Source of the DNA: Eggerthellaceae bacterium
Lineage (GTDB): Bacteria > Actinomycetota > Coriobacteriia > Coriobacteriales > Eggerthellaceae
Direction of reading: 5' to 3'
NCBI GenBank assembly: GCA_003452695.1
Contig: DMNP01000186.1
Coordinates: 1,077-14,410, forward strand
Length of the DNA: 13,334 nucleotides
The translations under genes and the position numbers were made by a program. The notes below the pieces were generated by a model. It made no database searches and was not told the origin of the DNA. It was given only the letters and a program-made list of their open reading frames with translations. This document shows, piece after piece, positions 6,416 through 9,100 of this stretch (positions within the stretch are counted from its first letter, which is position 1; every line of letters starts with the position of its first letter).

Positions 6416-7630
6416 TCAATCCACCTGTTTGTAGAACGCTTTCAGCGTGTTTTCCATAACGCTCTCTTCATCGAGCAGGTACCGTTCGTATTCGATGCCA
6501 TCCACTTCCGTGTACACCTCGGTCGTGCCCGTAAGAGTTGCAACCTGCAAGTCGGCATTTCCCCCTTGCAGGAAGCACGAGGCAAGGTAGGTTACCTCGG
6601 GAATGCCCAGATTGGTCGTGATGTCGTCGGAAACGCTATTATAGAGGTTCATGAGCCCGGGCACATCCTGCTGGGCGGCTTTCTGCGCGAATGCGGTAAT
6701 AAACTGCATCTGCCGCGCCTGACGTGCAAGCGCCGATTCGAATTCGTCCACGTTTCGGTAGCGCACGTACCGAACCGCCGAATCGCCTTCGAGAAGCACC
6801 TGGTCGCCGACTGCATAGCCTTCACCGGGAATCGCCTCGAGGGCCGTTACCTGAACCCCGCCGACTGCGGAACTGGCAGCCTTCACCACTTTCTGGTCTA
6901 TGTCTATGTAGTAGGAGATGGGAATGCCGTAGAAGATTCGCGCCACCGACTTGGTGGTGTTAGCCGCGCATTCGGCCTGGGTCGGCAGCATCACCGCATG
7001 GCTGAGCGTAAGTTGCAAGTCGCGCGTCGCCACATAGGCGCCGTTCTCGTCGTACACGTCCACCGGAACCCACGAGTTACGCGGGATGACGACGGCGTTC
7101 ATCTTCTTGGTGGCGGTGTCCAAGGTCATGAGCACGTCGATGTCGGCGCACGATGCGTCGGGGCGCGTTGCAAAGCTGCTCTCGTCGTCGTGGCCGATCA
7201 GCAGGAACGACACCACGTCTTCGTTATAGCGGTACGTGTGCCCCTTGTACTCGACGATTTGCCCGCCATCGCGCACCTCCGCGGAGGCAGGGGTGCTTTC
7301 CAGGCCGCCGAGCATCTTGTGAAGGTTGATGTTTCCCATATGCACGGCAATGGCCAGCGCGATGCCCGCCGCGGCCACAACGCCCACAATTGCCACAAGC
7401 ACGATGACCAGCACGCGCGCCTTGCCGCTGAGCGCCCGCTTCTTGCTCGACCCGCTGCGGCGCCCCTTGCGTTCGCGCTTGCGCGTGCGGATGATAACCC
7501 GGTCGGGGTCGTTGGGATCTTGAGACACCGTTACGTGCGCGTTGGGATTATGCGCATTCGGCATGGCGCCTTGCGCGTCTCCTGCACTTGCAGTGCCTCC
7601 TGCCACAGGGCTACGATGCTGGTCGGTCAT
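6416..7630 (-). CDS. LytR-CpsA-Psr (LCP) family membrane protein, divergent
   Basis: Predicted glycopolymer transferase that moves lipid-linked glycans onto peptidoglycan or, in some Actinobacteria, onto proteins. It has 404 residues: a polar N-terminal region with a basic patch (RKRERKGRRSGSSKKR, 50-65), one membrane segment (about 72-96), and an extracellular LCP domain (about 140-312). Recognisable motifs are SFLLIGHDDES (141-151), ADIDVLMTLD (162-171), VIPRNSWVPVD (181-191) and YVRYRNVDEFESALARQARQ (288-307). Several depart from the common forms LLLGSD, RSDT and IPRDT, though the Arg-rich last motif is intact. Function may therefore be altered or use a different substrate. The start overlaps the end of the sortase gene by 20 nt, giving tight translational coupling. 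This position matches cpsA in streptococcal-type cps regulons. Confidence 0.9.
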   Translation of the reverse strand: MTDQHRSPVAGGTASAGDAQGAMPNAHNPNAHVTVSQDPNDPDRVIIRTRKRERKGRRSGSSKKRALSGKARVLVIVLVAIVGVVAAAGIALAIAVHMGNINLHKMLGGLESTPASAEVRDGGQIVEYKGHTYRYNEDVVSFLLIGHDDESSFATRPDASCADIDVLMTLDTATKKMNAVVIPRNSWVPVDVYDENGAYVATRDLQLTLSHAVMLPTQAECAANTTKSVARIFYGIPISYYIDIDQKVVKAASSAVGGVQVTALEAIPGEGYAVGDQVLLEGDSAVRYVRYRNVDEFESALARQARQMQFITAFAQKAAQQDVPGLMNLYNSVSDDITTNLGIPEVTYLASCFLQGGNADLQVATLTGTTEVYTEVDGIEYERYLLDEESVMENTLKAFYKQVD

Positions 7631-8396
7631 CGACCATCACCCCGCATACCAGATAGCGCCCCGTTGCTTCGAGCGCACCGGTATTGCACGTGGAGAGAAC
7701 GAGGATCTTCGAATCAGCCCCGAGGTTCACTGGACGTACCTGCGCCCCCAAGGCGCTAGGGTTCTGGACGAACTGCAGGAACCGTGCGAAGTCGGAGTCG
7801 TCTTGAAAATTGTACAGGCCCATCAGGTGCTGGTCGTCGGACATGAAAGAGCTTATCACCTGGTACGTGCGCACGCGATCCGCAGTATAGACATACACCT
7901 TGTCGTTGCCGTTGAAAAACTCGCTTCGCTCGAAGTTGTGCAGCGGCGTGAACATGGTGTCGCCGTAGCCGTTATGCCCATACAGAATGGTCACCCGGTC
8001 TTGGAATCCCTTTCCGTTGAACTGAGATTCCGAAAACACCGCCCCCAACTCGCTGTCCTCCTTCTTGGCGTTGTGAGTTAGATAGAAGGCGTCGTTGTCC
8101 GCGCTCTGGCAAACCGGGTAGTTAATAGACGTGCCTGGAATATATATCCATGCATATACATCCGGGTTCTCCTCGCCGAGCGCGGCGAAGCTTATAGGGT
8201 TCTTCACGGTCTGGCTCGCATCGGAAAGGTCCGGCAGCGTCGGCTGCATGGACTGGGCGTTTTCGACATCGCGAATCTGCGCATACGTGTTCACGAGATA
8301 CAGACCGCCGGCAACTCCTCCGACAAGACACACCACCAGCACCGCAATGAGAACAATCACGATGGGTGAAAATCTGCGCGCCGATGTGGATTGCAC
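7611..8396 (-). CDS. Class B sortase
   Basis: Membrane-anchored cysteine transpeptidase of 261 residues that cleaves a sorting motif in exported proteins and links them to the cell wall or to each other. An N-terminal signal anchor spans about 11-33. The catalytic triad is His141 (LYGHNGYGDTMF), Cys237 (ILVLSTC) and Arg247 (GRYLVCGVM). The stretch NPDVYAWIYIPGTSINYPV (77-95) is characteristic of class B enzymes. GTG at 8396 is chosen, with AAGGGGG 7 nt upstream; the next methionine (M50) lies beyond the membrane anchor. It heads a run of five co-directional genes and follows the gene for a small protein with a matching sorting signal, its most likely substrate. Confidence 0.94.
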   Translation of the reverse strand: MQSTSARRFSPIVIVLIAVLVVCLVGGVAGGLYLVNTYAQIRDVENAQSMQPTLPDLSDASQTVKNPISFAALGEENPDVYAWIYIPGTSINYPVCQSADNDAFYLTHNAKKEDSELGAVFSESQFNGKGFQDRVTILYGHNGYGDTMFTPLHNFERSEFFNGNDKVYVYTADRVRTYQVISSFMSDDQHLMGLYNFQDDSDFARFLQFVQNPSALGAQVRPVNLGADSKILVLSTCNTGALEATGRYLVCGVMVDDRPAS

Positions 8397-8466
8397 GTCT
8401 CGGCCCCCTTGCCCCTCTGTTCCATCTGGGCCCGGTCCGACCCAACGCCTTACTTCGAAAATTCCT

Positions 8467-8504
8467 CTGGCCCACAGTCTGCGGATTTTCCCCCTGCCGG
8501 CCAG
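8467..8504. repeat. Imperfect inverted repeat in the sortase leader
   Basis: Arms of 11 nt (8467-8477 and 8494-8504) pair at 9 of 11 positions around a 16-nt loop. It sits between the terminator at 8521-8548 and the sortase start. It could be a leader hairpin, attenuator or protein site, and I cannot choose among these. No clear promoter was recognised in the rest of this 197-nt gap. Confidence 0.4.
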
Positions 8505-8520
8505 TTACTCACTTCATAAA

Positions 8521-8548
8521 GATGAGCCTGTGCTTACCCAGGCTCATC
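8521..8548 (-). terminator. Terminator after the SPNV-repeat protein gene
   Basis: A perfect 10-bp stem (GATGAGCCTG with CAGGCTCATC) closes an 8-nt loop. It is followed on the minus strand by only a short T-rich tail (TTTAT), so read-through into the sortase gene is plausible. It begins 45 nt beyond the stop at 8594. Confidence 0.7.
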
Positions 8549-8593
8549 AAGATACCGCCCGTGCATTCAGGGCGTCATATGGTCTTTGGCGCT

Positions 8594-9100
8594 CTATTCC
8601 CGACGCAGCGCCCTGCGCAGGGCAACGGCTGCTGCCGCAGCGCCGCCCAGCATGACCACCGTAGCGATTGCAATCGTGGTCAGGTTAAGCGCTCCGGATT
8701 GCGGCGATGCGGGAATCGACGCCGGGCGCGTAACAGATGCTGTGGTCGAAGCCGTTGCCTGCGCGGCAGCCGATGTTCCAGACACCGTGTTCGCCGCGAT
8801 GTTCGAAGCGGCAGCTGCGGGCGTGTTCACGATTGGCGATCCCACGTTGGGAGAATTAACGTTCGGCGAATCGACGTTGGGGGAATCCACGTTCGGCGAA
8901 TCCACGTTCGGCGAATCGACGTTGGGGGAATCGACGTTCGGCGAGTTCACGTTGGGGGAATTAACGTTGGGAGAATTCACGTTCGGCGAGTTAACGTTAG
9001 GGGAATCCGTGTTCGGGCTTGCCGTTGCAAATGCAGCGCCTGCAGGCAGCGCGCACGCCAATGCGAGCGCAACCAGGAGCGATACGAGTTTCTTTTGCAT
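8594..9100 (-). CDS. Small secreted SPNV-repeat protein with a sortase sorting signal
   Basis: Surface protein of 168 residues with no recognised domain family. A signal peptide (about 1-26, MQKKLVSLLVALALACALPA then GAAFATA) is followed by 13 consecutive pentapeptides (28-92): SPNTD, then eleven SPNV[N/D/G], then SPIVN. An Ala/Ser/Thr-rich stretch follows (93-131). The C-terminus has SPQSG (132-136), a hydrophobic segment (about 138-161) and RRALRRE, the classic three-part cell-wall sorting signal. SPQSG resembles the [S/P]PxTG motif recognised by Clostridioides difficile sortase B, with Ser for Thr. The class B sortase encoded next is the obvious partner. ATG 9100 has AGAGGTG about 5 nt upstream and a good promoter. 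It is probably a wall-anchored stalk or scaffold; binding role unknown. Confidence 0.88.
   Translation of the reverse strand: MQKKLVSLLVALALACALPAGAAFATASPNTDSPNVNSPNVNSPNVNSPNVNSPNVDSPNVDSPNVDSPNVDSPNVDSPNVNSPNVGSPIVNTPAAAASNIAANTVSGTSAAAQATASTTASVTRPASIPASPQSGALNLTTIAIATVVMLGGAAAAAVALRRALRRE
8825..9019 (-). repeat. Thirteen tandem 15-nt units encoding SPNV[N/D] pentapeptides
   Basis: 195 nt encode 13 uninterrupted pentapeptides, the first (SPNTD) and last (SPIVN) degenerate. Position 5 runs D, N4, D5, N, G, N. Codons vary between units (TCG CCG against TCC CCC or TCT CCC; GTT/GTG/GTC) while the amino acids hold. Confidence 0.95.

Follow-up and report, generated by a model that had tools for sequence, protein, structure and literature searches.

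Why should an exopolysaccharide (EPS) operon carry a class B sortase of its own, next to a small Ser-Pro repeat protein that has the layout of a sortase substrate? The question is raised by a stretch of 13,334 nucleotides (nt) from an Eggerthellaceae bacterium (GenBank assembly GCA_003452695.1, contig DMNP01000186.1, positions 1,077 to 14,410 of the forward strand), hereafter the window, in which the two genes are followed by those for a LytR-CpsA-Psr (LCP) glycopolymer transferase, a Wzz-type chain-length determinant, a polysaccharide tyrosine autokinase (BY-kinase) and a CpsB/CapC-type phosphatase (Table 1). An earlier, sequence-only reading took the pair for a repeat stalk and its sortase. 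The Ser-Pro repeat substrate holds up, whereas its setting in an operon with LCP, Wzz, tyrosine kinase and CpsB points to capsule or EPS display and not to a plain stalk. We consider it rather likely that this is an EPS or capsule operon with its own class B sortase and substrate, in which the small protein serves capsule display and the LCP enzyme may load the polymer onto it.

The coordinates of the repeat protein, its signal peptide, SPQSG motif, hydrophobic segment and RRALRRE tail, all named in the sequence-only reading, were confirmed in the sequence, and every part of a complete sorting signal is thus present. The same reading counted 13 SPNV[N/D] pentapeptides; there are indeed 13 tandem units, 10 of them exact, in the order SPNTD, SPNVN (four times), SPNVD (five times), SPNVN, SPNVG and SPIVN. 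Tandem Repeats Finder delimits the array as 8842-9016 with a period of 15. A Ser/Thr/Ala-rich linker separates the array from SPQSG, and AAAGAGG lies upstream of the ATG. Among 390 codon pairs compared between units, 163 differ synonymously and 72 non-synonymously, and the peptide has therefore been kept more than the DNA. The one homologue of the protein found among 5.8 billion proteins is a metagenomic protein of 147 amino acids (aa), P0121, which retains the repeats and an identical ASPQSGALNL, the overall identity being 62% (BLASTP) to 71% (alignment). Both P0121 and a sortase 63% identical to that of the window (P0007) are listed, each on a single contig of 1,897 bases, for one and the same source, and the two genes are probably side by side. 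The closest sequenced kin of the window is a Coriobacteriia metagenome-assembled genome (P0046; genome G232). When the last 47 residues of the substrate were used to query the 5.8 billion proteins, 184 candidates came back, none with E<=10, a result of little weight since P0121 was also not returned. The NCBIfam scan of the repeat protein produced nothing at 0.01 (best E 0.32). A Pfam match to Extensin_1 (32.6 bits against a cut-off of 105) was rejected as low complexity, and N-glycosylation of the repeats was discarded too, the protein having no N-x-S/T sequon.

Sequence and fold both place the adjacent enzyme among the class B sortases, as the sequence-only reading had it. It matches Pfam PF04203 (1.8e-12, 47.5 bits against a cut-off of 26.6), and its best NCBIfam match is the class B model TIGR03064, at 150.8 bits, 3 bits under the cut-off of 153.75; with this cut-off narrowly missed, the class assignment is based on the fold and the His-Cys-Arg active site. 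The AlphaFold model (predicted local distance difference test, pLDDT, 92.4) has class B sortases as all of its 19 best PDB matches (E 1e-17 to 1e-12), other classes following from 1e-8; a PDB sequence search gave 15 matches at E<=0.001, every one a sortase B or SrtB-like entry by name or structural match. Of the 113 class B rows in our alignment, 112 retain the catalytic His and Cys, and all 113 the Arg. In Blautia sp. Marseille-P3087 (L006:7992-8660), a sortase of the group located in an EPS cluster with LCP has Asn and His in place of the catalytic His and Cys, and is presumably inactive. Since class B pilus sortases exist, two of which (3psq and 4y4q) match the window sortase model, polymerization of the repeat protein into a pilus may be considered; it is extremely improbable, however, because a search of the mature window protein for an acceptor Lys found none for an isopeptide bond and Pfam and NCBIfam scans of the window proteins revealed no pilin-like family. 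An Isd-type role in haem uptake was rejected as well, since the motif is SPQSG and not NPQTN and the same scans of the window proteins gave neither a NEAT nor a haem family.

Is the pair peculiar to this genome? A search of 396 Coriobacteriia genomes yielded 52 window-like sortases down to E=1.4e-33, the next match being at 6.6e-29. These 52 matches in 48 genomes (L040-L089, L001 and L003) and the window constitute 53 Coriobacteriia-type loci. A second set, from Clostridia/Lachnospiraceae, comprises 56 loci with 60 sortases, six of the lowest among the 55 listed matches (G968, G960, G941 contig C39, G1018, G995 and G853) having been left out. In 51 of the 53 Coriobacteriia-type loci the same strand encodes a secreted protein with an [S/A]PxTG-like sorting motif. 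Homologous sortases with no such partner, which the sequence-only reading held to speak against a dedicated pair, are thus few here (L080 and L082, two of 53). In the Clostridia set a substrate was called for 40 of the 60 sortases, or 39 without L117 (IPNTG), a call that we take to be an FtsW-like membrane enzyme; of the 20 uncalled, some were missed, probable substrates having escaped automatic calling in L122, L149 (SPKTA), L131, L140 and L151. The motifs of the 51 loci, taking SPATG for L060 and SPKTG for L074, are SPQTG (18), SPKTG (16), SPATG (5), APATD (3) and SPQTN (2), with SPQSG, APQTG, SQQTG, SPKTN, SPLTG, SPYTG and SPKTD seen once each. Several differ from SPxTG in the first, second or last position with the rest of the signal kept: SPQTN in L053 and L056, SPKTN in L061, SPKTD in L073, APATD in L071, L077 and L079, and SQQTG in L059.

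The pairing is also visible at the level of genomes. A sorting-signal profile built from 31 signals (consensus xATSPQTG, a hydrophobic run and VALRKK) and run on the 396 genomes gave 42 strong matches (E<=1e-7) in 40 genomes, that is, in 40 of the 48 with the sortase and in none of the 348 without it; as the profile derives mostly from the signals of these same genomes, the matches there are partly by construction, which does not apply to the 0/348 elsewhere. Of the eight sortase genomes that have no strong match, six carry a shortened signal instead. A further 30 genomes, of which 29 lack the sortase, have weaker matches (2e-6 to 1e-3). All but one of the 42 strong matches are no more than about 2.2 kb from a window-type sortase. 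The remaining one, an SPxTG-type signal in G360 (contig C1:3331213-3331320), is far from the sortase locus in an open frame of 423 aa, possibly a second substrate. Because strong matches are confined to sortase genomes and, with one exception, to the vicinity of the sortase, sortase and substrate co-occur approximately 1:1. The pairing of the two is very likely genuine, and the adjacent repeat protein is, as first read, probably the dedicated substrate of its class B sortase.

A third partner, which the sequence-only reading missed, is the LCP enzyme, encoded on the same strand within 300 nt of the sortase in 45 of the 53 Coriobacteriia-type loci and within 300 nt of 41 of the 60 sortases in the Clostridia/Lachnospiraceae set. 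The substrate-sortase-LCP triad spans two phyla and recurs on several branches of the sortase tree. Within 6 kb of the sortase, 20 of the 53 loci encode Wzz, 18 CpsB and 19 a BY-kinase (tblastn; a BY-kinase profile gives 20/53 but also catches frames that are Wzz only). As controls we used the next 20 matches of the Coriobacteriia genome search, grouped without sortase-class assignment and in part located on short contigs; in the sortase tree they split from the 113 class B rows with an SH-aLRT (Shimodaira-Hasegawa-like approximate likelihood ratio test) support of 97. None of these 20 sortases from the same bacterial class has a neighbouring LCP, EPS gene or SPxTG protein, the sole other motif nearby being one LPTTN at a distance of 1.9 kb. 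One might suppose an ordinary wall-anchored spacer or adhesin that does no more than share an operon with EPS genes, as the stalk-like character of low-complexity Ser-Pro repeats and the Eggerthella sinensis branch, where a sortase-substrate pair has neither LCP nor EPS genes nearby, would suggest. Set against the recurrence of the triad and the empty control loci, this reading is improbable.

How does this arrangement relate to known systems? Three of its elements are already known, namely class B sortases acting on (S/P)PxTG, a class B-type sortase encoded within a capsule cluster, and LCP glycosylation of a sortase substrate. The sequence-only reading did not recognize the pair as described; one sortase with one small substrate is in fact the rule in the Coriobacteriia-type loci, and a related arrangement in the gut commensal Mediterraneibacter gnavus is in print, in a 2026 paper (PMC13121745). 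In the sections of that paper dealing with the cluster, deletion of srtB4 is reported to abolish the capsule and complementation to restore it, and the capsule defect is shared by mutants in two further genes of the cluster, those for the LCP (RGna_12040) and the tyrosine phosphatase (RGna_12055). The M. gnavus sortase is considered there unlikely to make the polymer directly, and candidate targets with sorting signals are noted near srtB genes (PMC13121745). As in the SrtB4 cluster (RGna_12030 to 12060), the window sortase stands beside an LCP with BY-kinase and phosphatase genes, and the gene order is parallel if SrtB4 is taken as RGna_12035, the only SrtB number listed within the cluster range. 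Unlike the window, M. gnavus belongs to a different phylum than Coriobacteriia, and the same sections name neither the SrtB4 substrate nor the reason why a sortase is needed (PMC13121745). Searches of open-access full text, a scope that leaves most subscription papers outside, did not turn up a conserved substrate-SrtB-LCP triad described as such.

With Clostridioides difficile SrtB, reported to recognize (S/P)PxTG and to have several substrates with Thr (PMC4371152, PMC5569036, PMC5118464), the window sortase shares the class B fold (4ux7, 5gyj, 6kyc and 6kyd are among the best model matches) and a motif beginning with Ser. It differs in the Ser that takes the place of Thr in the motif and in having its substrate encoded next to it, within an EPS operon. 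SPQSG is accordingly a Ser variant of that motif, as the sequence-only reading proposed. In Actinomyces oris, LcpA is described as glycosylating GspA before SrtA anchors it (PMC6381275), and in the window too an LCP gene is linked to a putative sortase-anchored protein. Unlike the housekeeping SrtA of A. oris, the window sortase is of class B and encoded in the locus, and glycosylation is here proposed from adjacency. The PEP-CTERM/EpsH (exosortase) system uses another sorting enzyme and another motif than those of the window. It is a parallel, not a kinship, in which protein sorting is likewise tied to exopolysaccharide genes (PMC1569441).

The substrates form a family that is undescribed in the libraries tried. 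In the usual relative of the window protein, the signal peptide is followed by a short Ser-Pro segment at the N-terminus (APSPSG, AQFNSPSG, AESPT etc.), a beta domain and the sorting signal. With cleavage sites set by a simple rule, 53 of 86 related substrates (88 less two that are too short) have Ser-Pro within the first 15 mature residues, against 4.5 expected from the remainder of these proteins; among control secreted-like open reading frames (ORFs), selected by a stricter signal-peptide rule, 4/38 do, three of which resemble missed substrates. The beta domain could be aligned in 51 relatives, and in the one member modelled its pLDDT exceeds 90 over residues 31-130; a PDB search with this model gave no match at E<=0.001. 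Library scans of the 51 members returned most commonly weak anchor-signal models (NPXTG in 12, LPXTG in 8) and otherwise scattered, weak Pfam matches; FIIND and the other weak Pfam matches to the beta domain, in one or two of the 51 members each, were not believed. The window protein and those of L040, L041 and L044 are too short for a beta domain and, together with L045, fall into one sortase clade (support 99); L040 has SPT pentapeptides where the domain would be. The SPNV[ND] array may thus represent amplification of a recurrent N-terminal Ser-Pro element and not a stalk invented anew.

From these observations the following mechanism can be proposed. The Ser-Pro repeat protein would be exported and retained in the membrane through its C-terminal helix, whereupon the class B sortase would cut SPQSG between Ser and Gly and join the protein to peptidoglycan, as the protein layout and enzyme class suggest. 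Anchored, or just before anchoring, the protein would help to display the polysaccharide of the Wzz/BY-kinase/CpsB-controlled pathway, a role that the M. gnavus SrtB4 precedent makes moderately probable. The likeliest link is that the neighbouring LCP moves polymer onto the protein and that the sortase then fixes the protein-polysaccharide conjugate to the wall; such covalent attachment, modelled on A. oris LcpA/GspA, is the least certain step and is put forward only tentatively. Equally tentative is its extension to the triad of Coriobacteriia and Lachnospiraceae as a whole, in which the capsule might be carried by a small dedicated protein and not directly by peptidoglycan, the LCP loading Ser of the N-terminal Ser-Pro element (13-fold here) and the class B sortase welding the conjugate to the wall. 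If true, a protein-linked capsule would explain the sortase requirement for the M. gnavus capsule. The conserved triad names the likely missing partner behind that requirement, extends the M. gnavus-type arrangement to a second phylum and makes a protein-linked capsule directly testable. Alternatively, the LCP could put polymer straight on peptidoglycan, as in Staphylococcus aureus, with the anchored protein as a separate non-covalent scaffold, spacer or lectin keeping the capsule in place. LCP enzymes are known to attach capsule to the wall (work cited in PMC13121745), and the beta domain of most relatives could bind sugars; a lectin role is not general, though, since the four proteins too short for that domain have kept gene order and sorting signal. 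We regard this alternative as doubtful, albeit one to be taken seriously.

Several points weigh against capsule display by a sortase-anchored protein. No LCP is present in the up to 6 kb examined in eight of the 53 loci (L003, L057, L067, L070, L074, L075, L082 and L085), and the LCP link is therefore not obligatory; five of the eight form one branch with E. sinensis, and seven (all except L082) keep the substrate. Wzz, kinase or CpsB is nearby in only about 20 of the 53, and in L042 and L043 about 2 kb separate the substrate gene from the sortase, which it adjoins in other loci. The likeness to M. gnavus SrtB4 is one of cluster description, not of sequence comparison. N-terminal Ser-Pro is missing from 33 of the 86 substrates, and the substrates being related, the counts demonstrate conservation and not independent events. 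As a class B motif SPQSG is unproven. Of the 51 Coriobacteriia-type motifs, 50 have Thr in the fourth position and that of the window alone has Ser, and the Thr-Gly scissile bond of the (S/P)PxTG-type pathway is absent from both the window protein and P0121, Ser replacing Thr. In C. difficile, SPSTG and SPQTG were cleaved in vitro, with the proteins bearing them reported as unprocessed in vivo (PMC5569036). SPQSG might no longer be processed, leaving the protein membrane-anchored or shed; the exact retention of ASPQSGALNL in the otherwise divergent P0121 points to constraint on the motif and makes such a loss quite improbable.

A further difficulty is posed by 18 substrate relatives in 15 loci that end 1-4 residues past [S/A]P[K/Q]TG, with no membrane helix or basic tail. 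Nine are from Coriobacteriia (L064, L076 and L083-L089), the window protein not being among them, and nine from the Clostridia set (two each in L005, L125 and L126, one each in L120, L152 and L155). As background, five other ORFs of 1,076 in the Coriobacteriia loci and three of 365 in control loci end in any PxTG. These proteins fall outside the textbook sorting route, and in C. difficile the hydrophobic region and tail are reported to be needed for sorting (PMC5569036). Tailed and tail-less rows changed into one another at least four times in the sortase tree, and a literature search for sorting signals without a tail brought up only papers on C. difficile and unrelated ones. As a separate observation, a single contig of one Lachnospiraceae genome (G399 contig C12; L005 and L120) carries three class B sortases that closely resemble one another; an LCP gene lies within 131 nt of each, and each has a tail-less SPKTG protein to itself.

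Table 1. Features of the sortase-substrate locus and its promoter region, in window coordinates
Feature	Position	Strand	Basis
Sortase substrate, SPNV[ND] repeat protein, 168 aa from ATG	8594..9100	-	ORF and sequence
Signal peptide (residues 1-25), cleavage placed by eye at AFA|TASPN	9026..9100	-	sequence
13 tandem Ser-Pro pentapeptides (10 exact SPNV[ND])	8825..9019	-	sequence and tandem-repeat scan
Sorting motif SPQSG, residues 132-136	8693..8707	-	sequence
Hydrophobic segment and basic tail (RRALRRE), residues 137-168	8597..8692	-	sequence
Sigma-70-like promoter match TTCACA-16-TAATAT, TG before -10	9136..9163	-	weak: 1 against 0.7 expected in shuffles
Perfect 10-bp hairpin in the gap from substrate to sortase gene, lacking a full T run; might act as attenuator or processing site	8521..8548	-	sequence
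Class B sortase, 261 aa, His141/Cys237/Arg247, N-terminal helix 11-47	7611..8396	-	Pfam, NCBIfam, alignment, AlphaFold
LCP glycopolymer transferase	6416..7630	-	PF03816 2e-18; 20-nt overlap with sortase gene
Wzz-type polysaccharide chain-length determinant	5734..6408	-	PF02706 1.3e-9, 38.6 bits (cut-off 25.5); TIGR01006 116 bits, below cut-off
Polysaccharide tyrosine autokinase (BY-kinase)	4969..5733	-	TIGR01007 162.9 bits, cut-off 108
CpsB/CapC-type tyrosine phosphatase	4338..4967	-	PF19567 4.2e-32

The sortase gene is the second of the series, 197 nt from the substrate gene, and from it through CpsB the genes overlap or are separated by no more than 7 nt, an operon layout. A terminator scan between the substrate and sortase genes was negative, the hairpin there being without a T run. 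The EPS module (4338-9100) and further genes sit between metG-tatD and an rRNA dimethyltransferase-like gene; TatD is encoded at 9180-10217, and the KsgA-like dimethyltransferase gene, named by eye, at 1-1056. A secreted transglutaminase-like protein (1809-3272) and a secreted protein without a Pfam match (3390-4199) appear, judged by eye, to have a similar C-terminal module.

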